A DNA stretch of 22,218 bases, from positions 1 to 22,218 of the IMG/VR virus record IMGVR_UViG_3300044491_003731. One strand, 5' to 3'. The DNA is from a virus. The notes beneath the pieces were generated by a model. It did not search any database, had not been told where the DNA came from, and saw nothing but the letters and a program-made list of their open reading frames with translations. This document shows positions 1,571 to 20,275 of this stretch, piece by piece; within the stretch, counting starts at the first letter, position 1; every line of letters begins with the position of its first letter. The translations under genes and the position numbers were made by a program.

Positions 1571-2316
1571 AAGAGGTAAAAATAGGAAAACAAAATGACA
1601 TACAGCCAATAGAGTGGCAACCATACAACGGTGAAACAGTCGTCAGGAATACCATAATCAGGAAAGGCAAAAGAATACAAGAGACTGAATATCATGAAGA
1701 CAAGGTTAAGGCAGTGCCACGTGGGAATGCCTACTGCATAGGAAATGGACCGTCCCGTAAAGACTTTGACTTAAACAAACTAAAATACACAGGCCAGACA
1801 TATGGATGTAATGCGCTTTACAGAGACTTCCTACCAGATTTCATATTTTCGGTGGATACTAAAATGACTGTGCAGATGTGCGAGGACCATGTTGGTCTGA
1901 AAACAGTCCATTACGCTCCAAGTCTAGAAGTCAACAGGAAACAGAACAATGGCATGTTACATCTCATACCACACAATCCGCACTGGATATCCGGCAATGC
2001 CGCATTCTGGACGGCAGGTGTGCACGGACATAAGGATATATATCTACTTGGATATGACTTCAGGGAGTACGGTAAGGATCAATTGAATAACATATATCAA
2101 GGAACTGATTGCTATGGCGAGCGTAATGAAGACAAAGTATTTGAGGGATGGTTGAAACAGTTCAGAGATATGTTAAAAATGCGGCCGTATGTGAATTACA
2201 CAATCGTTCACGATAATCCACCAAGTTACCTAAACTACCTGCAAACAGGAACTGATTTAGGAAATAGCAAAGTAATCACTTATAAGGAATTTGAAACTGT
2301 ATTAACACCTAGATAA
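1567..2316 (+). CDS. GNGPS-motif glycosyltransferase-like protein (DUF115/GT42-like)
   Basis: I chose the ATG at 1567, which overlaps the previous stop (ATGA), over an in-frame upstream ATG at 1525 buried in the previous gene. The protein is about 249 aa. Near residue 60 it has CIGNGPSRKDFDL followed by YGCNALYRDFLPDF, and later IYLLGYDF. A GNGPS loop, a downstream asparagine and a G.DF motif are the marks of DUF115/MptE-like proteins and the CMP-sialic acid transferases of family GT42, both of which bind nucleotide-linked substrates. It is the last of three sugar-related genes on this strand. Its 3' end overlaps the convergent SprT-like gene by 15 nt. The fold assignment is moderately sure; the substrate is unknown. 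Confidence 0.6.
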   Translation: MKEVKIGKQNDIQPIEWQPYNGETVVRNTIIRKGKRIQETEYHEDKVKAVPRGNAYCIGNGPSRKDFDLNKLKYTGQTYGCNALYRDFLPDFIFSVDTKMTVQMCEDHVGLKTVHYAPSLEVNRKQNNGMLHLIPHNPHWISGNAAFWTAGVHGHKDIYLLGYDFREYGKDQLNNIYQGTDCYGERNEDKVFEGWLKQFRDMLKMRPYVNYTIVHDNPPSYLNYLQTGTDLGNSKVITYKEFETVLTPR

Positions 2317-2778
2317 GCCTAGTCCGGCCAACCTAAACTTATTCTTCCAAGCGAAGAAGTTCTTGTTGTGGTTGCTGTAAGGATCCTTCAGCCAAGTCAT
2401 CTGGTACAAGTGAACCATCTCGTGTGCCAGTGTTTCAACGAAATCCTTCCAAGTGGGAAATTTACAGTGTAGTTCTATGTAGAATTCCACATCAATGTGA
2501 TAAGGTATAACCCTTTGGTCAAACTTGCCTTTGGGAGTCTTCCTGTTGTCCCAGTTGGCCACACACCTGCCCCAGTCCTTGTTTAGTTTACGAACACGCA
2601 ACGGCACAGACGGCAATCTGCCGTTAAACAATCCACGATTGAGCGTCCTGAACCAATGATACATCTGCTCTTGCGTGGGCTTGAACCCTTTGGTGTTCTT
2701 GTATCTGGTAATTGTGTTCTCCAACTGGATTTTGAGTTGTTTCCTCACATTTACCGTTTTGTTTTTCGTTTTTTTCAT
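2302..2778 (-). CDS. SprT-like zinc metalloprotease
   Basis: 158 aa from the ATG at 2778; a TTG 18 nt further upstream is open but less likely. The signature is ETLAHEMVHLYQ, an HExxH zinc site with glutamate as catalytic base (about residues 119-123), followed by NHNKNFFAW, which supplies the third histidine seen in SprT/Spartan proteins (HExxH...H..F). The N-terminus is lysine-rich, which suits DNA or nucleoprotein binding. SprT-domain proteins cut proteins cross-linked to DNA, and from memory they are found in marine T4-like phages; the precise job here is inference. It is transcribed away from the replication operon and shares the 65-bp intergenic region with the sigma70-like promoter of that operon. 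Confidence 0.85.
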   Translation of the reverse strand: MKKTKNKTVNVRKQLKIQLENTITRYKNTKGFKPTQEQMYHWFRTLNRGLFNGRLPSVPLRVRKLNKDWGRCVANWDNRKTPKGKFDQRVIPYHIDVEFYIELHCKFPTWKDFVETLAHEMVHLYQMTWLKDPYSNHNKNFFAWKNKFRLAGLGLSRC

Positions 2779-2780
2779 GG

Positions 2781-2808
2781 TTGACTGTTTTACCAATTGT
2801 GCTATAAT
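2781..2808 (+). promoter_or_regulatory. Sigma70-type promoter of the UvsW operon
   Basis: TTGACT at 2781-2786 and a perfect TATAAT at 2803-2808 are separated by 16 bp. Transcription would start near 2815, about 28 nt before the ATG at 2843. It lies between divergent genes and is the only clear promoter ahead of the overlapping gene series that ends at 8425. It should be read by the host polymerase, so the operon is likely early or middle. Confidence 0.75.
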
Positions 2809-4178: not shown

Positions 4179-5642
4179 ATGAGCAGTTGTAAACTAGTAA
4201 TTAAAGACGAAGTGAATGTGAAATTCGAGAACCTCAGCCTTGAATGGAGGAAACGACTTTCCAATAAATTCAAATACGAGATACCTTACGCAAGACACTT
4301 GCCTGCAGTCAAACTGGGCAGATGGGACGGCAAGGTCAGTTTCTTTGGACTGGGCGGCACGACATACCTCAATTTAGTTGATCAAATACTGCCAATATTG
4401 GAGGATGGTGGGGTGTACGTGGACTTCGAGGATCACAGGGAACAACATAACTATGAATTCAAGGCGGTGGACAAGGACTACCTAGCACACATCACATGGC
4501 CTGACAACCATCCTTGTGCAGGACAACCCATACAATTGAGAGACTATCAGGTAGAGACTATAAACAAATTCATAGAGAATCCACAGTGTATACAGGAGAT
4601 AGCCACAGGAGCAGGTAAGACCATAATAACCGCGGCTTTGTGTCAACTAGTAGAACCCTACGGTAGGACACTGACTATTGTTCCAAATAAAAGTTTGGTC
4701 ACACAGACCGAAGAAGACTTCCTCGCTTGTAATCTCGACGTTGGTGTGTATTACGGAGATAGGAAAGAACTAGGCAGGTTCAACACAATAGCCACGTGGC
4801 AAAGTCTAAACGTGCTAGAAAAAAAAGCGAAGGACGAACACACAACAGAATTCCTCGAGGCCATACAGGGCATCAACACCATCATCATAGATGAGGTTCA
4901 CATGGCTAAAGCGGACGTGTTGAAGAGATTGCTCACAGGACCATTCGCACACTGTGGCATACGCTGGGGACTGACGGGCACCGTGCCAAAGGCGGACTAC
5001 GAATTCATGGGATTGAAATGTAGCATAGGCGAAGTGGCCAACAGGATACAGGCCAGTGAACTACAAGATAAGGGAGTGTTGGCAAACTGCCACGTCAATG
5101 TTTTACAGACACAGGACCACCCGCAATTCAAGACCTACGGAGAGGAACTTAAATGGCTAACAACAGATCAAACACGGATGACGTGGGTGGCGCAGACTAT
5201 CCAAAGCATAGCCACATCAGGCAACACACTGATACTAGTGGACAGAATATCCGCTGGAGAGATACTTGAGAAGAAAATCAAAGACGCGGTGTTCGTGTCT
5301 GGAGCAACCAAGAACACAGACAGGAAGGAGCAATATGATGAAATATCTACTGCGACAAATAAGGTTATCATTGCCACATATGGAGTTGCCGCTGTTGGCA
5401 TTAACATTCCTAGGATTTTTAATCTTGTTCTCATAGAGCCTGGCAAGTCATTCGTTCGGGTGATACAGAGCATAGGACGTGGGATCAGGAAGGCAGAAGA
5501 CAAGGACAGCGTACAGATCTGGGACATTACCAGCAGTTGCAAGTTCGCGAAAAGACACCTAGGGGCAAGGAAAAAGTTTTACAAAGAGGCCAATTACCCG
5601 TATAATATAGAAAAGATAGATTATGAAAATCCTTACACTTGA
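4179..5642 (+). CDS. uvsW: UvsW-like RNA-DNA/DNA-DNA helicase
   Basis: 487 aa, close to the roughly 500 aa of T4 UvsW. Superfamily 2 helicase motifs appear in order: LRDYQVETI (Q/Ia region), ATGAGKT (Walker A, about 141-147), IIDEVHMAKAD (DExH box, about 236-246), GLTGTVP (motif III, about 264-270) and QSIGRGIRKA (motif VI, about 430-439). The N-terminal stretch KLGRWDGKVSFFG matches the small domain that precedes the helicase core in UvsW. In T4, UvsW unwinds R-loops and branched DNA and drives the switch from origin-dependent to recombination-dependent replication. It is the second gene of the operon and overlaps the next gene by 20 nt. The identification is secure. Confidence 0.95.
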   Translation: MSSCKLVIKDEVNVKFENLSLEWRKRLSNKFKYEIPYARHLPAVKLGRWDGKVSFFGLGGTTYLNLVDQILPILEDGGVYVDFEDHREQHNYEFKAVDKDYLAHITWPDNHPCAGQPIQLRDYQVETINKFIENPQCIQEIATGAGKTIITAALCQLVEPYGRTLTIVPNKSLVTQTEEDFLACNLDVGVYYGDRKELGRFNTIATWQSLNVLEKKAKDEHTTEFLEAIQGINTIIIDEVHMAKADVLKRLLTGPFAHCGIRWGLTGTVPKADYEFMGLKCSIGEVANRIQASELQDKGVLANCHVNVLQTQDHPQFKTYGEELKWLTTDQTRMTWVAQTIQSIATSGNTLILVDRISAGEILEKKIKDAVFVSGATKNTDRKEQYDEISTATNKVIIATYGVAAVGINIPRIFNLVLIEPGKSFVRVIQSIGRGIRKAEDKDSVQIWDITSSCKFAKRHLGARKKFYKEANYPYNIEKIDYENPYT

Positions 5643-6126
5643 CGACAGGTCCTACAGACTGGAAAAGATCCCAGAATGGGTGGATGAGAAATTGAGATTC
5701 GCTGTGTTGGACAATTCTGACCCAGCTAATCCAGACTTCTTCTACATACCACTAATTTTCCTGGAAAGTTTCAATGCACCCGCGGCGGTGTTAGAAATAG
5801 GTGATCACAAGATCAAAATGCCACTGGACTGGAAGATGTTGATCGGCGAGGCCGGACAATCAGAGATGCATGTGCTACCAATCACCAGTCTAAATGACAG
5901 GGGATTTGATGCGTTTACATTCAATCCTTTGTCTAGCACCAAACCAGAATTCATGCCCATAGATGTGGTTGACATCTACACAGAAGTCAAGTGGTACTTC
6001 CCTAAGATTAAATCAGGACAGATGTTAGCGGTGCCACTGACCAACGGACGTAGACCCATGTGTGCCTATTTCGTCAAGGACATATCCAGGCAGTGTGAAC
6101 AGGTGGACTATGGCTCAGTCTGGTAG
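5623..6126 (+). CDS. Unknown 167-aa protein following UvsW
   Basis: The ATG lies 20 nt inside the end of uvsW. The protein is acidic and beta-rich in appearance, with no membrane segment and no catalytic motif I can name. Characteristic stretches are IPLIFLESFNAPAAVLEIG, TSLNDRGFDAFTFNPL and TEVKWYFPKIKSGQ. From memory, proteins with this pattern are widespread beside uvsW in marine T4-like phages, but I know of no assigned function. Tight translational coupling to UvsW suggests a link to replication or recombination. The gene call is firm; the function is open. Confidence 0.88.
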   Translation: MKILTLDDRSYRLEKIPEWVDEKLRFAVLDNSDPANPDFFYIPLIFLESFNAPAAVLEIGDHKIKMPLDWKMLIGEAGQSEMHVLPITSLNDRGFDAFTFNPLSSTKPEFMPIDVVDIYTEVKWYFPKIKSGQMLAVPLTNGRRPMCAYFVKDISRQCEQVDYGSVW

Positions 6127-6806: not shown

Positions 6807-7473
6807 GTGCACATACTGTGGCAAGGAATTTGCAAAGGAACGTACTTTACAGGTGCATCTGTGTGAGCCAAAACGTAGATACCTACAGCGAGACGAGAAG
6901 TGGGTAGTCAACGCGTTCATGGTGTTCCAGAAGTTCTACAAGATACATCAGCACAACGCCAAGGAAAAGACCTATGATGATTTCGTCAAGAGTCCTTACT
7001 ACAATGCTTTCGTCAAGTTTGGCAGATACATCATGCACATCAACCCTTTGTATCCAGACAAGTACATAGACTTCGTTTTGAAATCTAAGATCAAACTGGA
7101 CCACTGGGCCAGGGATGACCTGTATGAGGAGTACCTAATAGAAACATTGAAGACCGAACCAGTAGAGTCCGCACTACAGCGTAGTATAGCCACCATGATG
7201 GACTGGGCCACAGAACAACACGCACAGTGGTCGGACTACTTCAGGTTGGTCAACACCAATAGGGCGGTACAACACATACAACAGGGCGCCATCAGTCCAT
7301 GGCTGTTGCTAGGTTGCGAAGCAGGCAAGAAGATGTTAAAATCATTTAATGACGAACAACTACAGATGATTGAGAGATTCATAAATCCAAGTTTTTGGCC
7401 CAGCAAGTTGAAGAGCTACCCAGCCGACCTTATGCTGGTAAGGGAGACTGCGAAGGAGGCCAAGATTGTCTAA
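6790..7473 (+). CDS. Zinc-finger protein of unknown function
   Basis: 227 aa, overlapping the previous gene by 17 nt. The N-terminus reads CTYCGKEFAKERTLQVHLC (residues 7-25), a C2H2-like zinc finger with C-x2-C, the usual phenylalanine and leucine, then H-x-C. The rest is helical and carries KSPYYNAFVKFGRYI, KIKLDHWARDDLYEEYL and GAISPWLLLGCEAGKKML. From memory, this arrangement is found in marine T4-like phages without a known function. A single zinc finger on a helical body suits nucleic-acid or protein binding, and the operon context (UvsW, DnaE-like protein) makes a replication or transcription role plausible. The finger is seen directly; its partner is unknown. Confidence 0.88.
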   Translation: MASTNKCTYCGKEFAKERTLQVHLCEPKRRYLQRDEKWVVNAFMVFQKFYKIHQHNAKEKTYDDFVKSPYYNAFVKFGRYIMHINPLYPDKYIDFVLKSKIKLDHWARDDLYEEYLIETLKTEPVESALQRSIATMMDWATEQHAQWSDYFRLVNTNRAVQHIQQGAISPWLLLGCEAGKKMLKSFNDEQLQMIERFINPSFWPSKLKSYPADLMLVRETAKEAKIV

Positions 7474-7699
7474 GATAGATCTAGAGATAGCGGACAATTT
7501 GGATTTCGAAGACGGGGATTGTGCCGTGGTAATAAAAGAGGACGGATCGATAGGAAGGGTGATCATGCCAGACATAAACAGGAATGTTCTTGATTCAGAG
7601 GGATACAGGAAACTGCTGGACATACTAGAAGTGTTACAACCAGGCTCACGTGACAAGATGATACAACACGCCGAAAAAGGCAAAGGGAGTATGCACTAA
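7466..7699 (+). CDS. Unknown 77-aa acidic protein with TTG start
   Basis: The reading frame has no suitable ATG. The TTG at 7466 is preceded by an excellent ribosome binding site, AAGGAGG at 7453-7459, six bases upstream, and overlaps the previous stop by 8 nt, so I take it as the start. The protein is small and acidic: an N-terminal stretch rich in aspartate and glutamate (KIDLEIADNLDFEDGD), a central part that could form a short beta hairpin, and a basic tail. Its stop shares a base with the ATG of the DnaE-like gene, so the two are translated together and might interact. No family is recognised. Confidence 0.8.
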   Translation: MSKIDLEIADNLDFEDGDCAVVIKEDGSIGRVIMPDINRNVLDSEGYRKLLDILEVLQPGSRDKMIQHAEKGKGSMH

Positions 7700-8289
7700 T
7701 GCCTGACGTGGACATAGACTTCTTTGACCGGGACGGAGTGCTGAAACTTTTCAAGCACACACCAGCATCAATCATCAAAGACGGCAAGACCGAGAAACAC
7801 AAGACCGGAGTGTATTTCCATGCAGTGCCTGAACACCCAGTAACGGGGAATTCTTCGTTAGACTACAAGAAGGCAGAGGACAGAGGCTACTTCAAGATCG
7901 ACATGTTGAATGTGAACATCTACAAAGAAGTCAAATCAGAGCAGGAACTAGTCGAACTGATGATACAGGAGCCCAATTGGGACATGCTGAAAGATCCAAA
8001 AATCGTGGAGAACCTGTTCCACATCAACGGGCACTTCGACATAGTGTCCAAACTGGAGCCAAGGAACATCGAGCAACTGGCCGCTGTGTTGGCCATAATA
8101 CGTCCCGCGAAGAGACAGTTGATGTACAAGGACTGGCAGGACATAATGAGGGAGGTGTGGACAAAACCCACAGACGGCTCATACTTCTTCAAGAAGTCAC
8201 ACGCTATAGCCTACGCACAGGCCATAGTGGTACAGATGAATCTGATCGCGAGGGCTAAATATAGTTTTGATGCTACATCAAAAACCTAA
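7699..8289 (+). CDS. Reduced DnaE-like (DNA polymerase III alpha) palm/fingers protein
   Basis: 196 aa against well over 1000 aa for bacterial DnaE. Four DnaE landmarks occur in the right order. PDVDIDF (2-8) corresponds to the PDxDxDF motif with the first two catalytic aspartates. HKTGVYF (34-40) corresponds to H-A-A-G-V. DYKKAEDRGYFKIDML (55-70) corresponds to the K-x-D-F-L-G segment with the third catalytic aspartate (D68). IEQLAAVLAIIRP followed by FFKKSHAIAYA (164-172) corresponds to EDLxALxALYRP and FxKSHAAAYA. About 100 residues present in DnaE between the first and third aspartates are missing, as are the PHP, little-finger and C-terminal domains. Whether it still polymerises is unclear; it could be a structural or regulatory relic. 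From memory, homologues exist in cyanophages as hypothetical proteins. Confidence 0.8.
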   Translation: MPDVDIDFFDRDGVLKLFKHTPASIIKDGKTEKHKTGVYFHAVPEHPVTGNSSLDYKKAEDRGYFKIDMLNVNIYKEVKSEQELVELMIQEPNWDMLKDPKIVENLFHINGHFDIVSKLEPRNIEQLAAVLAIIRPAKRQLMYKDWQDIMREVWTKPTDGSYFFKKSHAIAYAQAIVVQMNLIARAKYSFDATSKT

Positions 8290-8425
8290 AAAAAAGACAC
8301 CCAAACATCCTAGTAAAAAACATCGCAGTCCAACTCGCTCTGAGCTCGGATCATATCAAGCAGATAATCCATTGACCAAGTACGTGGAAAGAGTGAATGG
8401 TATAAACTGTACTGAAAAGAACTAA
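8270..8425 (+). CDS. Small basic protein, 51 aa
   Basis: An ATG at 8270 lies 20 nt inside the end of the DnaE-like gene, the same overlap used repeatedly in this operon. It opens a 51-codon frame ending in TAA at 8423-8425. The product begins MLHQKPKKKTPKHPSKKHR and continues to NPLTKYVERVNGINC. The N-terminal half is strongly basic, which suits nucleic-acid binding. Its last bases overlap the stop of the convergent gene by 4 nt, leaving no gap. No family is recognised. It fills an otherwise empty 130-nt stretch with a properly overlapping frame, which is the main support. Confidence 0.65.
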   Translation: MLHQKPKKKTPKHPSKKHRSPTRSELGSYQADNPLTKYVERVNGINCTEKN

Positions 8426-8796
8426 ACGGGTTTTCTTACCAATTGGATTGTTCTACGCTTGACGCGTTTCTTTGAGATATCAGAAAGTCTCACTGTTGGT
8501 CCATGAACTATCTCAACATCTTTAGAGTTCAAAGTCACTAATGTTGTACGGAAATACCTGAACTCACCTTTAAGGAATATATTGATGGGCAGTTTACGAT
8601 TGGACTCGTGCCACCAAGTCTCACCACACTTAAGGAACTTCATCTTGTCCTGTGGTAGCATCAACCTACCATAATCGTAGAAACTGATCACATTGGCATC
8701 CTCGTTCTGTACTATGCCCACATACTCCAAGTCGCCCTTTCTTATAAGGCTTAAAAATGGAAATTTGTCCCTCAGCGTGTTAAAAATCTCGTTCAT
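8422..8796 (-). CDS. Unknown 124-aa phage protein
   Basis: The ATG at 8796 opens a 124-aa frame. Notable parts are FPFLSLIRKGDLEYVGIVQN near the start, GETWWHESNRKLPINIFL in the middle and a basic C-terminus (KKRVKRRTIQLVRK). There is no signal peptide or membrane segment and no known catalytic motif. From memory, proteins with the WWHESNRKLPINIFL-like stretch occur in marine T4-like phages without assigned function. It is the only minus-strand gene between the UvsW operon and the structural gene, and it meets the operon tail to tail. Confidence 0.85.
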   Translation of the reverse strand: MNEIFNTLRDKFPFLSLIRKGDLEYVGIVQNEDANVISFYDYGRLMLPQDKMKFLKCGETWWHESNRKLPINIFLKGEFRYFRTTLVTLNSKDVEIVHGPTVRLSDISKKRVKRRTIQLVRKPV

Positions 8797-9876: not shown

Positions 9877-10890
9877 ATGAACCTGATCCAGAACACAATT
9901 CTGACGAGCCTGCCTGCGGGCAGGAAGAAGACCCCGAGTGGGTGGATATCATTCAACGCACCCTGTTGTGTTCACAACGGCGAGACTGCTGACAGGAAGA
10001 AGCGTGGTGGCATTATGACCAGTGCGGACGGAACTGTAAGCTATCACTGTTTCAACTGTGGCTTCAAGACCAGTTACGTGATCGGACGAAAGTTGACCTA
10101 CAAGATGCGACAGTTCATGGGCTACATAGGAATACCTGAAGACACGATAAAGAAACTGGCCATAGAGGCCATGCGTGAAGAAGAGAGTGACATCAAGTAC
10201 GAGAAAAAGAAATTTGTAACTTTCAAGAAGAAAGCACTACCTAAGAACACACACAAACTAGACGTGTGGTTAGAGAAGTACGTGGCCAATGACCTAACAG
10301 AACCACAATGGAAACGGATCGATGGACTACTGAAATACCTCGAAGGCAGGGGCATTGGAGCAGACTGGTATGACTTCATGTACTCACCAGACAAGATGTG
10401 GGACATTTATCAGAGACTATTAATTCCATTTTATTGGAAAGGTGAAGTGGTAGGTTACACGGGCAGAATATTCGAGGAATCACGTGCTGTCAAATACTAC
10501 ACAGACGTGTGGCCGGGATACGTGTTCAACATGGACGCACAGGATTGGACGAGGAAATTCGTGTTGGTTACAGAAGGACCATTTGATGCCATCGCGGTTT
10601 CTGGCGTGAGCATATTAGGGTCGGAGGTGAATGAAGCACAGAGAGAATTACTAGACGGTTTAGGCAGACAAGTGATAGTGGTACCTGACAGGGACGCCCC
10701 TGGACAGAAGTTAGTAGATCAGGCCACAGAGTTTGGATGGAGTGTGGCATTTCCGGAATGGGACAAAACTGTTAGCGATGTGGCCGAAGCCGCGCAAAAG
10801 TATGGTAGGTTGTTCACCCTGAAATCGATACTGAATTCAACTGAGAAGTCGAAATTGAAAATAGATCTCAAAAGGAAGATGTATGGTTAA
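9877..10890 (+). CDS. 61: DNA primase, T4 gp61-like
   Basis: 337 aa, near the 342 aa of T4 gp61. The N-terminal zinc site is visible as APCCVHN (C30, C31, H33) and YHCFNCGF (C58, C61), the DnaG-type zinc-binding domain that recognises the template. A TOPRIM domain follows, with VTEGPFDAIAVSG (about 231-243; the glutamate is the acid-base residue) and VVPDRDAPG (about 268-276; the two metal-binding aspartates). Primase makes the short RNA primers for lagging-strand synthesis and works in a complex with the gp41 helicase, encoded two genes downstream. Its end overlaps the inserted radical SAM gene by 8 nt. Confidence 0.94.
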   Translation: MNLIQNTILTSLPAGRKKTPSGWISFNAPCCVHNGETADRKKRGGIMTSADGTVSYHCFNCGFKTSYVIGRKLTYKMRQFMGYIGIPEDTIKKLAIEAMREEESDIKYEKKKFVTFKKKALPKNTHKLDVWLEKYVANDLTEPQWKRIDGLLKYLEGRGIGADWYDFMYSPDKMWDIYQRLLIPFYWKGEVVGYTGRIFEESRAVKYYTDVWPGYVFNMDAQDWTRKFVLVTEGPFDAIAVSGVSILGSEVNEAQRELLDGLGRQVIVVPDRDAPGQKLVDQATEFGWSVAFPEWDKTVSDVAEAAQKYGRLFTLKSILNSTEKSKLKIDLKRKMYG

Positions 10891-11791
10891 CTTTCATATA
10901 GAACCAACTAGTAAATGCACATTGGAATGTCCTTTGTGCGATAGGACATGGTTATATAAAAGATTTAAAAAAAGAAATCTCCACGAAATAAACATAAACC
11001 ACATCACAGAATTTGTTGGGACAAACGCGAGTGTGACCATGTGTGGCAATAATGGCGATCCCATATATCATTCACAATTCATAGATCTGTGTAGGAGATT
11101 TAAAGATAACAACTGCAGAATTTCTATCATTACAAACGGATCAGCAAAATCAAAAAAATGGTGGAAGGAATTGAACAACCTACTCGACCAGAACGATAAG
11201 ATCACATTTTCTATAGACGGTCTAGAAGACACAAATCACATATACAGGAAAAATGCCAAATGGAAATCTATAATAGATGCTGTACAGACCCTAGAGAAAA
11301 GAAAATGTCACATGGAGTGGAAATTTATAGTGTTCAAACACAACCAACATCAAATTCAAAAGGCTAAAAATTTGTCAGTCGATATGGGCTTTAATCACTT
11401 CCGGTTAGAACACAGTGATAGATGGCTGGGAGAAAAAGAACTTATGCCGGACAGTGAATTTGTTGATGCGGTCTATCAGCAACAAAAAGAGATTCTAATA
11501 AATCCAGAATTCTCAACGACAATGGTCCCAAAATGTTTACAAAATGGCAAACCTCAAAACGACCTTTACATAGATGCAGAAGGAGATTTTTATCCTTGTT
11601 GTTGGATGGGCACACACAGGTACAAGTTCAAAAGTATGTATTCTCCAAAAAATAAATCATTTAACATTAGTAAAAAAACGCTAGACAGTATATTGAATAA
11701 CAGTGAGGTAAAACAGTTTTTTGAATCAACAAAACAATTTACTTCTGCCCATGAATGTTGTAAAATAAAGTGCGGAGTAAGAAATGGCTGA
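10883..11791 (+). CDS. Radical SAM protein with C-terminal cysteine cluster (SPASM-like)
   Basis: 302 aa. The radical SAM motif C-x3-C-x2-C is seen as CTLECPLC (C12, C16, C19), which binds the 4Fe-4S cluster that cleaves S-adenosylmethionine. TMCGNNGDP near residue 52 fits the glycine-rich SAM-contact motif, and ITNGS and FSIDGLEDTNHIYR match later strands of the barrel. The C-terminal part has DAEGDFYPCCW and HECCKIKC, cysteines typical of a SPASM or twitch auxiliary cluster. It overlaps both the primase and the helicase by 8 nt, so it is translated within the replication operon, yet its DNA is visibly richer in A+T. That suggests a later insertion. The substrate is unknown; peptide or sugar modification are the usual roles in this family. 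Confidence 0.85.
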   Translation: MVNFHIEPTSKCTLECPLCDRTWLYKRFKKRNLHEININHITEFVGTNASVTMCGNNGDPIYHSQFIDLCRRFKDNNCRISIITNGSAKSKKWWKELNNLLDQNDKITFSIDGLEDTNHIYRKNAKWKSIIDAVQTLEKRKCHMEWKFIVFKHNQHQIQKAKNLSVDMGFNHFRLEHSDRWLGEKELMPDSEFVDAVYQQQKEILINPEFSTTMVPKCLQNGKPQNDLYIDAEGDFYPCCWMGTHRYKFKSMYSPKNKSFNISKKTLDSILNNSEVKQFFESTKQFTSAHECCKIKCGVRNG

Positions 11792-13223
11792 ATACACATT
11801 TGATGTACAAAAACTTTATATAGAAATGCTACTAGCAGATGCTGAGTCATTCGCTAGGGCACAGAACATATTCAAACCGGAATCGTTTGACAGGAAACTA
11901 CAACCAATAGCCAAGTTCGTCAAAGACTACATGGACGAATACAAAGTGATGCCAGATGTTGAACAGGTCAACGCTAAACACGACATCAAGTTGAAGTCAG
12001 CGAAAGATTTAGATCCAAGCCACTTCAACTGGTTGCTGGACGAGTTCGAGACATTCTCGAGACACAAGGCGCTGGAGCACGCCATACTGCAATCAGCGGA
12101 TCTTCTAGAGAAGGGAGACTATGCTCCTGTTGAGGACATGGTCAAGGAAGCGGTCAGCGTGGGACTCACACGTGACCTAGGCACGGACTACTTCGAGGAT
12201 CCGAAAGGCAGACTGACTGCCCTCAAGGACAACAACGGTCAGATCAGCACAGGCTGGGCCAACCTCGACAAGAAACTGTTTGGTGGATTCAACCGGGGAG
12301 AACTAAACATCTTTGCAGGTGGATCAGGCGCAGGTAAGAGTTTGTTCTTGCAGAATCTCGCGGTGAACTGGGCCACTGCCGGTCTCAACGTGTGTTACAT
12401 TTCTTTCGAATTGAGTGAACAACTGACGGCAATGAGGTTGGATGCCATGATGACCAACATACCAACACGTAAGGTGTTCCCAGAGATAGACAATGTGGAG
12501 ATGAAGGTCAAGATGATGGCGAAGAAGTCCGGGATACTACAGATCAAGTACCTGCCAAGTGGTAGCAACGTTCTAGACGTGAGAACATATCTCAAGGAAC
12601 TAGAACTAAAGGCAAAGAAGAAGATAGACTGCATACTGATCGATTACTTGGATCTCATGATGCCAAAGAGCAAGAAGATATCGCCAGCAGACTTGTTCAT
12701 CAAAGACAAGTATGTGAGTGAGGAACTGAGGAATTTGGTGGTTGAGAAACAGTGTGTGTTGGCAACAGCATCGCAGTTGAACCGGGCATCTGTAGAAGAG
12801 ATAGAGTTTGATCACAGTCACATATCAGGTGGACTGTCCAAGATACAGACAGCGGACAACGTGATAGGTATATTCACTTCAAGAGCCATGAAAGAACGTG
12901 GCAGATATCAGATACAGTTCATGAAGACCAGATCCAGTTCGGGTGTGGGACAGAAAGTAGATCTGGAGTTTGATGTGGACAGTCTGCGTATCAGAAGCCT
13001 GGACGAGGATGAGTCACAGAGCTACAATCAGCAGGGCAAGAACAAGATTTATGATTCATTGAAGCAGACATCCAAGGTCACGGGCAATGAACAAACAGAT
13101 GCTAGATCGGAAGTGCCGGATCCCCGTAAAGGTGATGCACTAGGAGTCAAAGTCAAGGCCACTGTTGAAGGCGGTAAACTGAGACAACTTCTCAACGAGT
13201 TGCACTCAGACGAAGAACAATAA
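11784..13223 (+). CDS. 41: Replicative DNA helicase, T4 gp41-like
   Basis: 479 aa, like T4 gp41 (475 aa). The N-terminal domain (about 1-150) is helical, as in DnaB-family helicases. The RecA-like core has GGSGAGKS (Walker A, about 179-186), YISFELSE, IDCILIDYLDLM (Walker B), ATASQLNR (motif H3) and SHISGGLSKIQTADNVIGI (H4 region with DNA-binding loop). It forms a hexamer that unwinds DNA ahead of the leading-strand polymerase and recruits the gp61 primase. It starts 8 nt inside the radical SAM gene, and its TAA shares a base with the ATG of the methyltransferase gene. The identification is secure. Confidence 0.95.
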   Translation: MAEYTFDVQKLYIEMLLADAESFARAQNIFKPESFDRKLQPIAKFVKDYMDEYKVMPDVEQVNAKHDIKLKSAKDLDPSHFNWLLDEFETFSRHKALEHAILQSADLLEKGDYAPVEDMVKEAVSVGLTRDLGTDYFEDPKGRLTALKDNNGQISTGWANLDKKLFGGFNRGELNIFAGGSGAGKSLFLQNLAVNWATAGLNVCYISFELSEQLTAMRLDAMMTNIPTRKVFPEIDNVEMKVKMMAKKSGILQIKYLPSGSNVLDVRTYLKELELKAKKKIDCILIDYLDLMMPKSKKISPADLFIKDKYVSEELRNLVVEKQCVLATASQLNRASVEEIEFDHSHISGGLSKIQTADNVIGIFTSRAMKERGRYQIQFMKTRSSSGVGQKVDLEFDVDSLRIRSLDEDESQSYNQQGKNKIYDSLKQTSKVTGNEQTDARSEVPDPRKGDALGVKVKATVEGGKLRQLLNELHSDEEQ

Positions 13224-13888
13224 TGAAAAAAGTATATGACTGGTTCCTGCCAGACTATGACAGCCATTATGAGAAATGGATGACTCTCAACAACGAAAAA
13301 ACTTATCAACGATTGCAAAGAGAGTATGCGCTCAATCAGGTTAAACATTTCCGTACAGCAGTAGACATAGGCGGTAACCTAGGTTTCTGGAGTAAAGACT
13401 TCTGTAAGCAATTCGACAATGTGACAATTTTTGAACCCGAACCATCAAATATAGAATGTTTGAAAGAGAATCTAAAAATGCATTCAAACTTCACACTGCA
13501 CGAAGTAGGACTAGGTAGCAAAGAAGAAATAAGAGAATTTTACACATCATTAACTACATCAGGAGGACATAGTTTCTATAGGGATCAGATTTTTGAAAAC
13601 GAAGTTAACAAGACTATGTTACCTATTAAAAAACTTGATGATTACAATCTAACAAATATAGATCTCATCAAGATCGACACACAAGGTAGTGAGTACGATA
13701 TACTGCTAGGTGGGAAGCAGACCTTGATCAATAACGATGCTGTGCTGAATATTGAGATAGAACACAAGAACGAGGGACATAAAAAGCGTGCCAAAGAAAT
13801 CATAGACTTCTTATCAAGCGTGGACTACAAAGAGTATGGCAGATCCCGTAGGAAAGAAGTAGTCTTCAAAAAAGAGCGTAAAGCGTAA
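13223..13888 (+). CDS. FkbM-family SAM-dependent methyltransferase
   Basis: 221 aa. AVDIGGNLGFWSKDF (about 46-60) is the glycine-rich SAM-binding motif I, and TIFEPEPSN (about 71-79) carries the acidic residue that holds the SAM ribose. NIDLIKIDTQGSEYDILLGG (about 145-164) is the FkbM hallmark, in which I-K-I-D-x-x-G-x-E precedes a conserved strand. FkbM enzymes methylate hydroxyl groups of sugars and small molecules. The gene is coupled to the gp41 helicase (TAATG overlap), but nothing ties it to replication; it reads as another accessory gene in this operon, more A+T rich than gp41. The tail ends in KKERKA, and its stop lies in the AGCGTAAA repeat region. Confidence 0.88.
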   Translation: MKKVYDWFLPDYDSHYEKWMTLNNEKTYQRLQREYALNQVKHFRTAVDIGGNLGFWSKDFCKQFDNVTIFEPEPSNIECLKENLKMHSNFTLHEVGLGSKEEIREFYTSLTTSGGHSFYRDQIFENEVNKTMLPIKKLDDYNLTNIDLIKIDTQGSEYDILLGGKQTLINNDAVLNIEIEHKNEGHKKRAKEIIDFLSSVDYKEYGRSRRKEVVFKKERKA

Positions 13889-13988: not shown

Positions 13989-14927
13989 TTAGAATGTGAA
14001 CTTGATTCCAGCCGCGGCATCTTGTGTGTCAACACCTGATGTAACGTCTGTCATTTCAAAGGCACCATACACGCTGAAGTTCTCACCGATCTTCTTCTCG
14101 GCTCCCACTGTTGTGTATGCGTTGCCATCCTTGATCTTGCCATAACCCACCGAGTACGTTGTGTCTTCGATAACATGCGAAGCAACGAATTCGTTGGCTT
14201 TGGTGTCAAGGTTGGTCGATTCCACTGTCTTGATTGTGTGGTTGTAACCGATCGAAGTGGCATCTGAGATGTCAAATGATGCACCAACACCCTTGTACTC
14301 GATGTTGTTCACTTTGTCATCCGTGTAGGCGATACCCACGTTTAGGCCGTCGCTCACGTCCATCGAGGCCGCAGTCTCGTAAACGTCAACACCCGACTTA
14401 CCAGTTGTACCGTCAACTTTTACCAAGTTGTCGATCTGGATCGCACCGAACGTGTTCGAGTAGATCACTGTGTGTGAGTCTCTGCTGAACAGTTTCTGTG
14501 CGGCACTTCCGCCGTATTCTGGGAACACATCTGTCTTAGATGTAACAGCACCCTTGAACACAGAGTTCTGTCTTCCTGCTGATAGCACACCTGTTCCACC
14601 CATGTCAACGCCGGCGAAAGCCAGTTTTGAATCGAACGGTGTGGAACCAGAGTCATCCGCGTCGATGTCCACTTCTAACTTGGCGAACCCGTCGATGCCC
14701 TCTGATAGGTTGCTCGAGAAGTCAACACCGATGTTGGAACCATTGTTCTCTGCTTTAGATGTTGAAACGCCGTTGGCGTCCTCGTTGTTAGAAAGCATAT
14801 AGTTCAGTGAACCGTAAACTTTCATATCAGCCGCTTCTGCTGGTGTTGGTTTCATCAACCACCCAATCACCACAAGCGCGATTATAATTGCCGCACCTAT
14901 GGCTGTCTTCTTCTTTGTCATTTTCAT
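13989..14927 (-). CDS. Gram-negative outer-membrane porin homologue carried by the phage
   Basis: 312 aa from the ATG at 14927, chosen because AGGAG lies 10 bases upstream; a longer GTG-started frame exists but lacks such a site. Residues 1-32 form a signal peptide: MKMTKKK, a hydrophobic core AIIIALVVIGWLM, then PAEA as a likely cleavage site. The mature part opens with MKVYGSLNYML, the usual first strand of Gram-negative porins, continues in alternating amphipathic strands with acidic loops, and ends in IKFTF, the terminal phenylalanine required for BAM-mediated insertion. Porins form trimeric channels for small solutes. In a phage this could change nutrient entry or block adsorption of competing phages. 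A late box (GATAAATA) lies about 86 bases upstream. Confidence 0.85.
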   Translation of the reverse strand: MKMTKKKTAIGAAIIIALVVIGWLMKPTPAEAADMKVYGSLNYMLSNNEDANGVSTSKAENNGSNIGVDFSSNLSEGIDGFAKLEVDIDADDSGSTPFDSKLAFAGVDMGGTGVLSAGRQNSVFKGAVTSKTDVFPEYGGSAAQKLFSRDSHTVIYSNTFGAIQIDNLVKVDGTTGKSGVDVYETAASMDVSDGLNVGIAYTDDKVNNIEYKGVGASFDISDATSIGYNHTIKTVESTNLDTKANEFVASHVIEDTTYSVGYGKIKDGNAYTTVGAEKKIGENFSVYGAFEMTDVTSGVDTQDAAAGIKFTF

Positions 14928-15012
14928 TATAGATTGTCTCCTATATCTTTTTTTTTCTATAAGGTTTATAAATGCGATCACTGGCCTTGTGACCGCTCCG
15001 GATTGTAAGGCA

Positions 15013-15107: not shown

Positions 15108-15275
15108 ATGGGCATACACTACGACTACAAGAGCACCCGGGGTGCGAAGAAGATGCAGAAGCAACAGGAACGTGAACAGCGAAGGCGGCGTAAGAAATCA
15201 CAACAGATGCCCGCACCGAAATCCAAGGAGAGTCAACCCTTGACACTGGACATGATCACCGATCCTACGAAATGA
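15108..15275 (+). CDS. Small lysine/glutamine-rich protein, 55 aa
   Basis: ATG at 15108 is preceded by a perfect AGGAGG at 15095-15100, seven bases upstream. The 55-codon frame ends in TGA overlapping the ATG of the radical SAM gene (ATGA), so the two are coupled. The product is highly charged: MGIHYDYKSTRGAKKMQ, then a glutamine/arginine/lysine-rich helix, then a proline-rich linker and TLDMITDPTK. It has no membrane segment. A short peptide coupled upstream of a radical SAM enzyme with SPASM-type cysteines raises the possibility of a modified-peptide precursor, but it lacks an obvious leader/core split, so that is speculative. An overlapping longer frame in another register has no ribosome binding site. 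Confidence 0.75.
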   Translation: MGIHYDYKSTRGAKKMQKQQEREQRRRRKKSQQMPAPKSKESQPLTLDMITDPTK

Positions 15276-16309
15276 TCAACGAACGACTGTTCAAGCACTA
15301 CCATATAAGCACTTCTAAGGACCTACAGATAAAAAACAGGTGTCCCAGACCATTTGACACCGTCCTGATAGACAAGCGTGGATCGTGTTTTGCCTGTGAA
15401 TGCCAGTCATGGTTGCCACAGAGCATAGGCAACCTGCAGGTGAAACCCTTGGCAGATATAGTGGGCAGTGACATGCACAGGCACCTGCAGACAAGCATAG
15501 AGGACGGTTCATATCGCTACTGCAACGAGCACCAGTGCAGTTACATAAAGGGAGGCCTGATGATGGACAGCAGGGCCACACACCTACGACACATCAGGCT
15601 TGCCATTGATGACAGTTGCAATCTCAGATGTCCCAGTTGTAGGAAAAGCATGATATTCCACAAGGAGGGATCCGCCCATGACCTTGGCGTGAGGTTGGCA
15701 GACAAGATAAATGATTGGTTGCACAACTACGATCATCCAATACAGGTGCACATAGGATCAGATGGTGATCCCTTCGCATCACACGTGTACAGGCACTTCA
15801 TGGAACAAACGCCTCACAGAGACAACATAAAATACTCCATACTCACAAACGGATTGATGTTCAAGGAATTCCACGACAGAGTTCCTTACGTGATCGGTAA
15901 CTTGAAAGAATTAGGAGTAAGCATAGACGGAGCCACCAAAAACACCTACGAGAAGTTGAGGCTAGGTGGTCGTTGGGAGAAGATGTTAGAGGGATTGGAA
16001 TGCATGGCAGAACAAAAGCAAAAGCATGGCTTCCGATTCATACTGCACTTCGTTGTGCAACGAGACAACTACCACGAGATGGGAGACATAATAGACCTGG
16101 GAGAACGGTACGGTGCCGACAGGGTATGGCTCAATCGAATCAAGGATTGGGGCACAATAGACGACTTCGGTGCGCAGAATATCTGGAACACTCCCGACTA
16201 TCAGGAGCATCTGTCCAACCTGATCGCACGTATCCGCAAACGCGATGATAGGTTTATCGAGTGTCCTACCCTAGTAAGTGAAGAGGTTCGTCGTAAAAAC
16301 AGAAGCTGA
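15272..16309 (+). CDS. Radical SAM protein with N-terminal SPASM/twitch-like domain
   Basis: 345 aa. The radical SAM motif CNLRCPSC is at residues 116-123 rather than near the start. It is preceded by a cysteine-rich region (C24, C39, C42, C44, C84, C89) including GSCFACECQSWLPQSIGNL and CNEHQC, the pattern that normally follows the barrel in SPASM proteins. After the radical SAM motif come HIGSDGDP, ILTNGLMF, VSIDGATKNTYEKLR and FVVQRDN, all typical barrel strands. Enzymes of this layout carry auxiliary iron-sulfur clusters near the N-terminus. It is coupled to the 55-aa gene, and its 3' end overlaps the convergent oxygenase-like gene by 44 nt. Substrate unknown; peptide or sugar-linked modification is likely from the family. 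Confidence 0.87.
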   Translation: MINERLFKHYHISTSKDLQIKNRCPRPFDTVLIDKRGSCFACECQSWLPQSIGNLQVKPLADIVGSDMHRHLQTSIEDGSYRYCNEHQCSYIKGGLMMDSRATHLRHIRLAIDDSCNLRCPSCRKSMIFHKEGSAHDLGVRLADKINDWLHNYDHPIQVHIGSDGDPFASHVYRHFMEQTPHRDNIKYSILTNGLMFKEFHDRVPYVIGNLKELGVSIDGATKNTYEKLRLGGRWEKMLEGLECMAEQKQKHGFRFILHFVVQRDNYHEMGDIIDLGERYGADRVWLNRIKDWGTIDDFGAQNIWNTPDYQEHLSNLIARIRKRDDRFIECPTLVSEEVRRKNRS

Positions 16310-17292: not shown

Positions 17293-17809
17293 TTGGTCAA
17301 GTTTGGTTACCGCCGAATGTCGAGTGGTCAAAATAGGTAACAACACGGTCTATCCAATATTCCGTAACGGATCTACGAGTCTATTCATGGACGCGGACAC
17401 TGTTTACACAAACCATGAGATAACCGGATGTTCGGAAATAAAAATCTTGTGGAGACGCCCCGAAGATCGTTTTGTAAGTGGTTTAAACGAATACTGCAGG
17501 CAAAATAATCTAGAGGTGAGCGAGACCTGGAAGAAAGTAAAGGAAGGGACTTTAACCGACAGTCATTTCGCACCTCAATACTTCTGGATACTCAATCTTT
17601 ATAGATTTTACAAAGAGACCGTCACGCTGGTACCATTTGAACAGATAGGAACACTAACTAACAAACGTGCCAGGTCTATAGACGAAATAATTCCTGTGAC
17701 GGTCATAGACGAATATGTTTATGTAGACAAAATAATATCAAAAGACCTAATGGGCAAAAGTGTGAAGATAAAACACATAGTAGAAAGATATAAGAATGAA
17801 TTGCCCTAG
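17282..17809 (+). CDS. Sulfotransferase-like protein
   Basis: I chose the ATG at 17282 (MRYNWSSLVTAE) instead of one at 17216 buried in the dehydrogenase gene; this gives 175 aa. VYPIFRNGSTSLF near the start resembles the 5'-phosphosulfate loop of sulfotransferases (K/R-x-G-S/T-T-S), and ILWRRPEDRFVSGLNEYC resembles the 3'-phosphate motif with its arginine and serine (R-P-x-x-R-F-x-S). TVTLVPFEQI fits the next core strand. The protein is short but has both PAPS-contact motifs. It overlaps its neighbours on both sides, so it belongs to the modification cassette. Transfer of sulfate to a sugar is the best guess; the acceptor is unknown. Confidence 0.65.
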   Translation: MRYNWSSLVTAECRVVKIGNNTVYPIFRNGSTSLFMDADTVYTNHEITGCSEIKILWRRPEDRFVSGLNEYCRQNNLEVSETWKKVKEGTLTDSHFAPQYFWILNLYRFYKETVTLVPFEQIGTLTNKRARSIDEIIPVTVIDEYVYVDKIISKDLMGKSVKIKHIVERYKNELP

Positions 17810-18785
17810 GCTTGATCATTTTGTTAGGATGAACAGCGACGGATCCTTGAGCCCCTGTGGACACATGGTGAGACCCAAGCAATTCGAATCATTTGAAGAT
17901 TTACAAAACAGCAAATGGATAGACGGGATAAAGAAAAAATTTTCGTCTGACCAATGGCCAGAAGAATGTGCTAGGTGTCAACAATCCGAAGGGACCGGTA
18001 ACAAGAGCATAAGGATGCATAGTATAGATCGCGACAAACTTCTCAAAGCGATCAAAAAAGATTACCTGGTCGTGGGAGGAGTTTTGGACAATGTCTGCAA
18101 CAGTGCTTGCCAAACATGTAACGCATCTCTGAGCACAAAGATAGGAAGTCTGCAGTCAAAAAACTACATAAGGGTCGACAACTACGTAAAATTTTGGGAA
18201 CTGCCACAGAAAAGGATTATAGAGTTAGATGTTAGTGGTGGTGAGCCAACGGCAAGTAAAAACTACAAAAGGATCTTGGAAAATTTACCATCTAACACTA
18301 AAATAATCAGAATGAATACTAATTGTTCAAGAATCATTCCCGAAATAGAAACCGTTCTTTCTAATGGAATCAAAGTAATAATCACTGTCAGTCTAGACGG
18401 CTTAGGCAAAACACACGACTACATCAGATGGCCGATCACGTGGAAACAATTTGAAAAAAATTTCAAATTTTACAAAAACCTCGAGGCAAGGCACAAATTA
18501 CTCGAGTTGGATTGTTGGTCTACTATTAGCTGTTTGAATTTACATGATTTTGATAATATTTTAGAATTTGCTAGGATAAACAAAGTACAACACGGATGGG
18601 CATTCTTGAGCGAGCCCGAGGTATTGAATGTCAAGTACTCAAATCCATTCACAATCCCTTATCAACATCTCTTCCCTGATAAGATCGCCGTGGGAGAGGA
18701 CAATTCGACCCAACTCAAAAACTTTCTAAGTCAACAAGACAGCCTGAGATCGATAAAGATCAATGACTATCTGAGTTTCGCGTGA
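17796..18785 (+). CDS. Radical SAM protein with N-terminal twitch domain
   Basis: 329 aa, starting 14 nt inside the previous gene. The N-terminus is a twitch/SPASM-like region: CPRLDHFVRMNSDGSLSPCGH (C3, C21) and ECARCQ (C58, C61). The radical SAM motif follows as CNSACQTC (C101, C105, C108). Downstream are ELDVSGGEPTASKNY (the GGEP SAM-contact motif), RMNTNCS and TVSLDGLGKTHDYIRWP. This order, auxiliary-cluster cysteines before the barrel, defines the twitch domain-containing radical SAM proteins and is shared with the gene at 15272, although the two differ clearly in sequence. Its end overlaps the SGNH-like gene tail to tail by 19 nt. The enzyme class is secure; the substrate is not known. 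Confidence 0.87.
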   Translation: MNCPRLDHFVRMNSDGSLSPCGHMVRPKQFESFEDLQNSKWIDGIKKKFSSDQWPEECARCQQSEGTGNKSIRMHSIDRDKLLKAIKKDYLVVGGVLDNVCNSACQTCNASLSTKIGSLQSKNYIRVDNYVKFWELPQKRIIELDVSGGEPTASKNYKRILENLPSNTKIIRMNTNCSRIIPEIETVLSNGIKVIITVSLDGLGKTHDYIRWPITWKQFEKNFKFYKNLEARHKLLELDCWSTISCLNLHDFDNILEFARINKVQHGWAFLSEPEVLNVKYSNPFTIPYQHLFPDKIAVGEDNSTQLKNFLSQQDSLRSIKINDYLSFA

Positions 18786-19808: not shown

Positions 19809-19885
19809 TGGTGGACCTGACAGGATTCGAACCTGTGGCCTTGGGTTCCGCAAACCCACGCTCTATCCAACTGAGCTACAGGTCC
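19809..19885 (-). tRNA. tRNA-Arg (anticodon GCG)
   Basis: Complete cloverleaf on the minus strand: acceptor GGACCTG/CAGGTCC, D arm GCTC..GAGC with the Arg-typical A20, anticodon stem TGGGT/ACCCA around TTGCGGA, and T arm ACAGG-TTCGAAT-CCTGT. CCA is encoded. It reads CGC and CGU. Most bacteria use an ACG (inosine) tRNA for these codons, so GCG is unusual. Confidence 0.93.
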
Positions 19886-19891
19886 TTTTTT

Positions 19892-19968
19892 TGGCGTGCC
19901 CGGCAGGATTCGAACCTGCGACCCCAAGTTTAGGAAACTCGTATTCTATCCAACTGAACTACGGGCAC
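19892..19968 (-). tRNA. tRNA-Arg (anticodon CCT)
   Basis: Acceptor GTGCCCG/CGGGCAC, D arm GTTC..GAAT, anticodon loop TTCCTAA, T arm GCAGG-TTCGAAT-CCTGC, discriminator G, CCA encoded. It reads AGG, a codon used often in the genes of this window, so it likely supplements a host poor in this tRNA. Confidence 0.93.
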
Positions 19969-19976
19969 ATATTTGT

Positions 19977-20051
19977 TGGCGGTCCCTAGGGGAATCGAAC
20001 CCCTCTTTCGAGGATGAAAACCACGTGTCCTAACCGATAGACGAAGGGACC
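19977..20051 (-). tRNA. tRNA-Glu (anticodon TTC)
   Basis: Acceptor GGTCCCT/AGGGACC, anticodon loop TTTTCAT, T arm AGGGG-TTCGATT-CCCCT, discriminator G, CCA encoded. The anticodon stem CGTGG/CCTCG holds one T-T mismatch in its middle; the rest is regular. It reads GAA and GAG. Confidence 0.92.
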
Positions 20052-20053
20052 TC

Positions 20054-20127
20054 TGGTGGAGGATAGGAGAGTCGAACTCCTGACTCATCCATGCCATGGA
20101 TGCGTGATCCCACTTCACCAATCCCCC
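20054..20127 (-). tRNA. tRNA-Ala (anticodon GGC)
   Basis: Acceptor GGGGGAT/ATCCTCC contains the G3-U70 wobble pair that identifies alanine tRNAs, confirming the GGC anticodon in loop ATGGCAT. D arm GTGA..TCAC, T arm AGGAG-TTCGACT-CTCCT, discriminator A, CCA encoded. It reads GCC and GCU. Confidence 0.93.
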
Positions 20128-20199
20128 AAACTGACCAATCACATGCGAGACCATTGACTTCTTTGGTGTATATGGTAATTCTGGCATAATTGGTTCTTG

Positions 20200-20275
20200 T
20201 GGTGCCGCTTCACGGATTCGAACCGCGGACCTACTGATTACAAATCAGTTGCTCTACCGGCTGAGCTAAAGCGGC
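20200..20275 (-). tRNA. tRNA-Thr (anticodon TGT)
   Basis: Acceptor GCCGCTT/AAGCGGC, D arm GCTC..GAGC, anticodon stem ACTGA/TCAGT around TTTGTAA, T arm CGCGG-TTCGAAT-CCGTG, discriminator A, CCA encoded. It reads ACA chiefly. It is the first tRNA of the cluster; 72 bases without a recognisable gene separate it from tRNA-Ala. Confidence 0.94.

Follow-up and report, generated by a model that had tools for sequence, protein, structure and literature searches.

What is a fragment of a DNA polymerase III alpha subunit doing among the replication genes of a T4-like phage? The question is raised by a 22,218-nucleotide stretch of viral DNA (IMG/VR record IMGVR_UViG_3300044491_003731; "the window" refers to this whole stretch), in which an ATG-initiated open reading frame (ORF) of 196 amino acids lies close to genes for UvsW-, gp61- and gp41-like proteins. 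A preliminary description had taken the ORF for a DnaE-type catalytic core in reduced form and the genome for that of a T4-like phage, two assignments that our analysis upholds. It had also called such a gene unexpected, and had offered a C-family relic, a minimal polymerase and a decoy for host clamp or tau as explanations. The genes that frame the locus are as follows; we refer to the 196-aa protein as the C-half.

4179..5642, plus strand: UvsW-like helicase, upstream of the C-half and on the same strand
7466..7699, plus strand: 77-aa ORF whose stop codon overlaps the C-half ATG by one base (TAATG)
7699..8289, plus strand: C-half of a split minimal DnaE, phrog_11778, 196 aa, with the metal-binding palm strands and shortened fingers
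8422..8796, minus strand: convergent 124-aa ORF, phrog_11637
9877..10890, plus strand: gp61-like DNA primase, downstream of the C-half
11784..13223, plus strand: gp41-like (DnaB-type) replicative helicase, downstream of the C-half

Homology and architecture of the C-half

Searched against PHROG, the C-half matches phrog_11778, annotated as 'DNA polymerase', with an E value of 9.7e-68 and coverage of residues 3-187. A profile built from 27 relatives retrieved Pol III alpha chains (E 0.0017-0.15) from among solved structures, with no other match up to E 1; these fall into four co-linear pieces, which correspond to DIDID, the strand of the third aspartate, the fingers as far as the IRP motif, and FKKSH. 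Alignment of the C-half to E. coli DnaE by hhalign extended from HKTGV through IRPAK (E 1.4e-4). The AlphaFold model of the C-half (mean pLDDT 84.6, pTM 0.73) likewise found Pol III alpha in all of its top 14 PDB matches by Foldseek, at E values of 0.0017 to 0.38. A single-sequence phmmer search of the PDB gave no DnaE match, an NCBIfam search returned nothing relevant, and Pfam reported for the C-half alone just a sub-threshold match to a finger model (E 0.019), the same model being matched by 20 of the 27 relatives.

The DnaE landmarks named in the preliminary description are all present in the ORF and in the order given there, including KHKTGV at residues 33-38 and IEQLAAVLAIIRP at residues 124-136. 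Those with assigned E. coli equivalents are:

7702..7722, plus strand: PDVDIDF, residues 2-8; D3 = E. coli DnaE D401, D5 = D403, D7 = D405
7891..7908, plus strand: FKIDML, residues 65-70; K66 = E. coli K553, D68 = D555 (third metal ligand)
8095..8115, plus strand: IIRPAKR; R135 = E. coli R639 (fingers)
8185..8202, plus strand: FFKKSH, residues 163-168; K166 = E. coli K758, H168 = H760 (fingers)

Across the C family D401, D403 and D555 are absolutely conserved, and the position of D405 is occupied by Asp in DnaE and by Asn in PolC (Timinskas et al., PMC3919608). The C-half contains the whole triad, as D3, D5 and D68. Two acidic residues had been noted in PDVDIDF, and these are indeed the equivalents of D401 and D403, but the motif holds a third aspartate, D7, and because this residue is Asp at the position of E. 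coli D405 the protein is of the DnaE type and not of the PolC type.

Around these motifs the protein is drastically shortened. D5 and D68 are separated by 63 residues, compared with 152 between D403 and D555 in E. coli DnaE, which indicates that the thumb has been lost; R135 and K166 are 31 residues apart as against 119 for R639 and K758, and only 28 residues follow H168 where 400 follow E. coli H760; nothing lies beyond the FKKSH helix. No PHP match was found in the 196 residues, and clamp-binding and C-terminal domains are missing as well. The preliminary description was right to list the PHP, most of the fingers and the C-terminal domains as absent, and to these must be added the thumb and the first part of the palm, since the C-half starts at the DxD motif, past the strand and helix that carry the nucleotide-binding GRGS sequence. 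The 77-aa ORF immediately upstream does not contain the missing GRGS part.

Relatives of the C-half were found by tblastn in 90 records of a phage database, and those listed are nearly all jumbo phages of about 280-490 kb, among them Atu_ph07, Phosso, PA5oct, Paride, XacN1, SCTP-2, RaK2 and PBECO4. At least 571 IMG/VR stretches also carry a relative, the best 80 sharing 85-97% identity. In Atu_ph07 (NC_042013.1, locus 6073, L081:5993-6567) the RefSeq start seems to be placed too far downstream; translation from the ATG at 5993 begins with MKNIPDIDIDF and so includes the DxD motif, which is absent from the annotated protein.

A separate gene for the first part of the palm

A Pfam DNA_pol3_alpha search revealed a second, separate ORF in each of seven cultured jumbo phage genomes. 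These N-half ORFs, of about 170-180 aa, match only positions of about 16-98 of the model and belong to phrog_11127 (about 173 aa). At their C-terminal end they read ...GVGRGSSVASYVLYLIGVHKxxSIxYxLDxxEFL(K/R), followed by a stop codon; the GRGS segment thus lies in a different chain from the metal-binding aspartates. N-halves align to residues 320-393 of E. coli DnaE and no further, and C-halves start at residue 400, so the two genes are complementary, with no more than about 7 residues between them. For the first 100 residues of the N-half Pfam gave no match better than chance, and a Foldseek search with the N-half model gave six top matches that are all Pol III alpha, though weak.

Compared with E. 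coli and Thermus DnaE, the phage system thus shares the catalytic Asp triad, the equivalents of D405, K553, R639, K758 and H760, their order and the fold, and differs both in the loss of PHP, thumb, clamp-binding and C-terminal domains and in having a palm that is divided between two genes just before the DxD motif. This division bears directly on the proposal that the 196-aa protein by itself is a self-sufficient minimal polymerase. The presence of all three metal ligands in one fairly confidently modelled chain speaks for it, but the GRGS strand and helix are absent from that chain and are encoded by a second gene elsewhere in these genomes, and we regard the proposal as very improbable.

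DnaE is also encoded in two pieces in cyanobacteria, where a split intein joins them (PMC3919608), and this precedent could suggest that the phage fragments are likewise joined in trans. The ORF ends were compared at the junction and no intein sequence was seen: the stop codon of N-half ORFs comes within 0-3 residues of EFL(K/R), and only a few residues precede PDxDxD in C-half ORFs. Since both ORFs end or begin at the junction itself, there is no room for intein halves, and joining by an intein is scarcely credible here. Unlike the cyanobacterial pieces, moreover, the phage pieces are reduced rather than full-length.

Co-occurrence and gene neighbourhoods

Both halves are present in all seven cultured jumbo phages examined, and they share a contig in 23 metagenomic viral cases from IMG/VR, which brings the phages or contigs with both on one record to 30. 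Among 20 contigs of at least 200 kb picked for their N-half, 17 also carry a C-half, while in the other three the C-half found no match. The phage database holds the N-half in 87 records and the C-half in 90, with near-identical host counts. Over 25 genomes the N-half and C-half distance matrices correlate with r 0.57, the best of 2000 permutations reaching 0.38, although part of this correlation could be explained by shared ancestry alone. A family B polymerase accompanies the pair in 7/7 cultured genomes and was found in six of the seven N-half contigs searched, the exception being an 85-kb fragment. A search of 84,980 bacterial and archaeal genomes found the C-half nine times, in metagenome-assembled genome (MAG) contigs assigned to unrelated taxa, the pattern that binned phage contigs would produce.

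The order uvsW, C-half, gp61-gp41 recurs in most of the cultured phages viewed and is partly visible in XacN1 and SCTP-2. In all seven the C-half is followed by a short ORF on the opposite strand, directly in six and one gene later in XacN1. In RaK2, Paride and contig G018 (loci L677, L678 and L107) only a few genes separate the N-half from the gp44 clamp loader gene downstream of it, and with the C-half beside gp61-gp41 the two subunits are therefore encoded in separate clusters of replication genes.

Some close relatives of the window possess a third polymerase gene, which encodes a DnaE of 565-576 aa with a complete palm and fingers and no PHP (Pfam DNA_pol3_alpha, E 8e-43). It is found at L097:1396-3126 and L098:1402-3132 (contigs G013 and G001), and also in G048, G061 and G067. 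Its position in G001 is about 6 kb downstream of the C-half, where it comes after gp41 and a gene for an endonuclease III-like protein; in the window a methyltransferase gene follows gp41 in place of this arrangement. DnaE proteins of the phrog_405 type, which are known from other phages and include this PHP-less form, have the C-family catalytic core in common with the split pair, but are single chains with a complete palm, encoded by a separate gene that can adjoin the C-half. It is conceivable, though we hold it with some doubt, that in certain members of the lineage the split pair is one of two C-family enzymes, beside the PHP-less DnaE.

The window carries several further genes, some of them among or near the replication genes:

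2302-2796, minus strand: SprT-like metalloprotease (Pfam, E 3e-8)
10883-11791, 15272-16309 and 17796-18785: radical-SAM/SPASM proteins, among or after the replication genes
13223-13888: FkbM methyltransferase
13989-14981, minus strand: phage-encoded Gram-negative outer-membrane porin near the replication genes (Pfam Porin_1, E 5e-10)
19809-20275, minus strand: cluster of five tRNA genes (Arg, Arg, Glu, Ala, Thr)

Genes similar to the radical-SAM/SPASM and FkbM set are also found at the end of contig G001 (L304).

Conservation and selection

The three metal-binding aspartates are the same in every sequence examined. All 28 aligned C-halves keep D3, D5, D7, H34, G37, K66 and D68, and all keep R135, P136, K138 and H168; K165 and K166 show a few K/R/Q changes. 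GRGS is retained in all 41 N-halves. The window gene is under purifying selection, with a median dN/dS of 0.033 against 34 relatives. This value and the invariant active site speak against a relic or a decoy, and the idea of a C-family relic, put forward in the preliminary description, finds no support.

A catalytically dead regulator or decoy, which would bind a replisome protein of the host or the phage, might be suspected from the small size of the protein and the loss of most DnaE domains. Clamp and tau contacts of DnaE reside in its C-terminal domains, and these contact-bearing parts are absent here. A decoy would also have no need of an invariant active site, and yet the catalytic aspartates and GRGS are unchanged in both subunits across very divergent phages, and the halves occur together. 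We consider this explanation improbable.

The likely partner in the marine lineage

The N-half is absent from the 22 kb of the window and from all contigs of its lineage, of which the longest measures 91 kb. N-halves of one distinctive type, represented by L588 and L594, which are 61% identical to each other, occur in two MAGs whose C-halves are 87% and 77% like that of the window; 75 IMG/VR loci belong to this type. Samples with the C-half lineage account for 22/66 of those with the L588/L594 type, compared with 12/62, 0/25 and 1/40 for other sets of N-halves. Inspection by eye showed that genes of this type are followed by a small protein and then by a GroES-like co-chaperonin, as in G018. 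Co-binning, shared samples and gene order make the L588/L594 type the likely partner of the window lineage; a distance-profile test of the pairing did not single it out. One of the MAGs, G153, contains two quite different N-halves, L587 and L594, which suggests either that two phages were binned together or that a single phage has two N-subunits.

Other routes to a partner were pursued and abandoned. A marine cluster of 44 N-halves, first taken as the partner, was rejected, since the C-halves found on its long contigs are no more than 52-54% like that of the window. L370-type and related N-halves are paired with other C-halves wherever a pair can be seen. Nucleotide overlap between N-half contigs and those of the window lineage yielded no real link, and overlap of the major capsid protein, which had seemed to connect contigs, was discarded as a criterion: with 65-83% identity of this protein throughout these phages, it cannot tell them apart.

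Discussion

The locus is less anomalous than it first seemed. A split minimal Pol III alpha in T4-like jumbo phages was described in 2021 by Iyer et al. for phages of 'group 2.2' (PMC7824862), and the C-half was already represented as phrog_11778. The system is the same in its C-terminal unit and, as seen in the cultured relatives, in its separate and distant N-terminal unit and its T4-like setting with a family B polymerase; the authors proposed that it might cooperate with the family B enzyme or act in repair, and that it might represent an ancestral state. The window differs in representing an uncultured marine lineage whose protein is at most about 54% identical to those of cultured phages. 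Junction coordinates, conservation counts and selection estimates do not appear in the text of PMC7824862, and our literature search found no experimental study of split Pol III alpha. The present work adds a map at the level of residues, the site of the junction, figures for selection and co-occurrence, and a likely type of partner.

We propose that the ORF probably encodes the C-subunit of a naturally split, minimal DnaE-type nucleotidyltransferase, the palm of which is completed by an N-subunit of phrog_11127. The C-half would provide the three metal-binding aspartates and shortened fingers, and the N-half the GRGS strand and helix that hold the dNTP triphosphate. We infer that the halves associate non-covalently, rebuild a single palm active site and transfer nucleotides as a heterodimer. 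Because thumb, clamp-binding and PHP domains are lacking, the enzyme is predicted to be distributive and to have no proofreading activity of its own, properties that would best fit short-patch, primer or repair synthesis, and such a role beside the family B replicase is probably the one it plays. The position of the C-half between uvsW and gp61-gp41, and of the N-half near gp31 and gp44, suggests that the short-patch work takes place at the fork, where it may consist of primer extension, gap filling or repair.

The main rival to this proposal accepts an active nucleotidyltransferase composed of both halves, but one that works without a template and adds nucleotides, for example, to the ends of DNA or RNA or to some other target. 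Such an activity could account for the loss of the thumb and of the domains that grip double-stranded DNA in a protein whose metal- and nucleotide-binding residues are invariant. The palm of DnaE has the Pol beta-like nucleotidyltransferase fold, which supports many reactions (general knowledge and PMC7824862). Retention of the equivalents of R639, K758 and H760 (with few substitutions at K166), as well as the location of both genes within replication gene clusters, argues against such an activity, and we judge the rival unlikely, if less so than the alternatives weighed above. A more specific idea, which we put forward tentatively, is that the two subunits, about 370 aa in total, make up a working C-family polymerase with a dedicated task at the T4-like fork, one left undone by the family B replicase. 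We know of no smaller C-family enzyme.

The puzzle of why a T4-like phage should carry a C-family 'relic' is thereby answered: the gene is one half of a conserved split system, already described and predicted to be an enzyme. With the exact junction, the invariant residues and a likely partner at hand for an abundant marine lineage, a direct test of the two proteins becomes simple. Should the pair prove active, it would serve as a minimal model in which to study the C-family palm and how it arose, and would explain the retention of two polymerase families by some T4-like phages.
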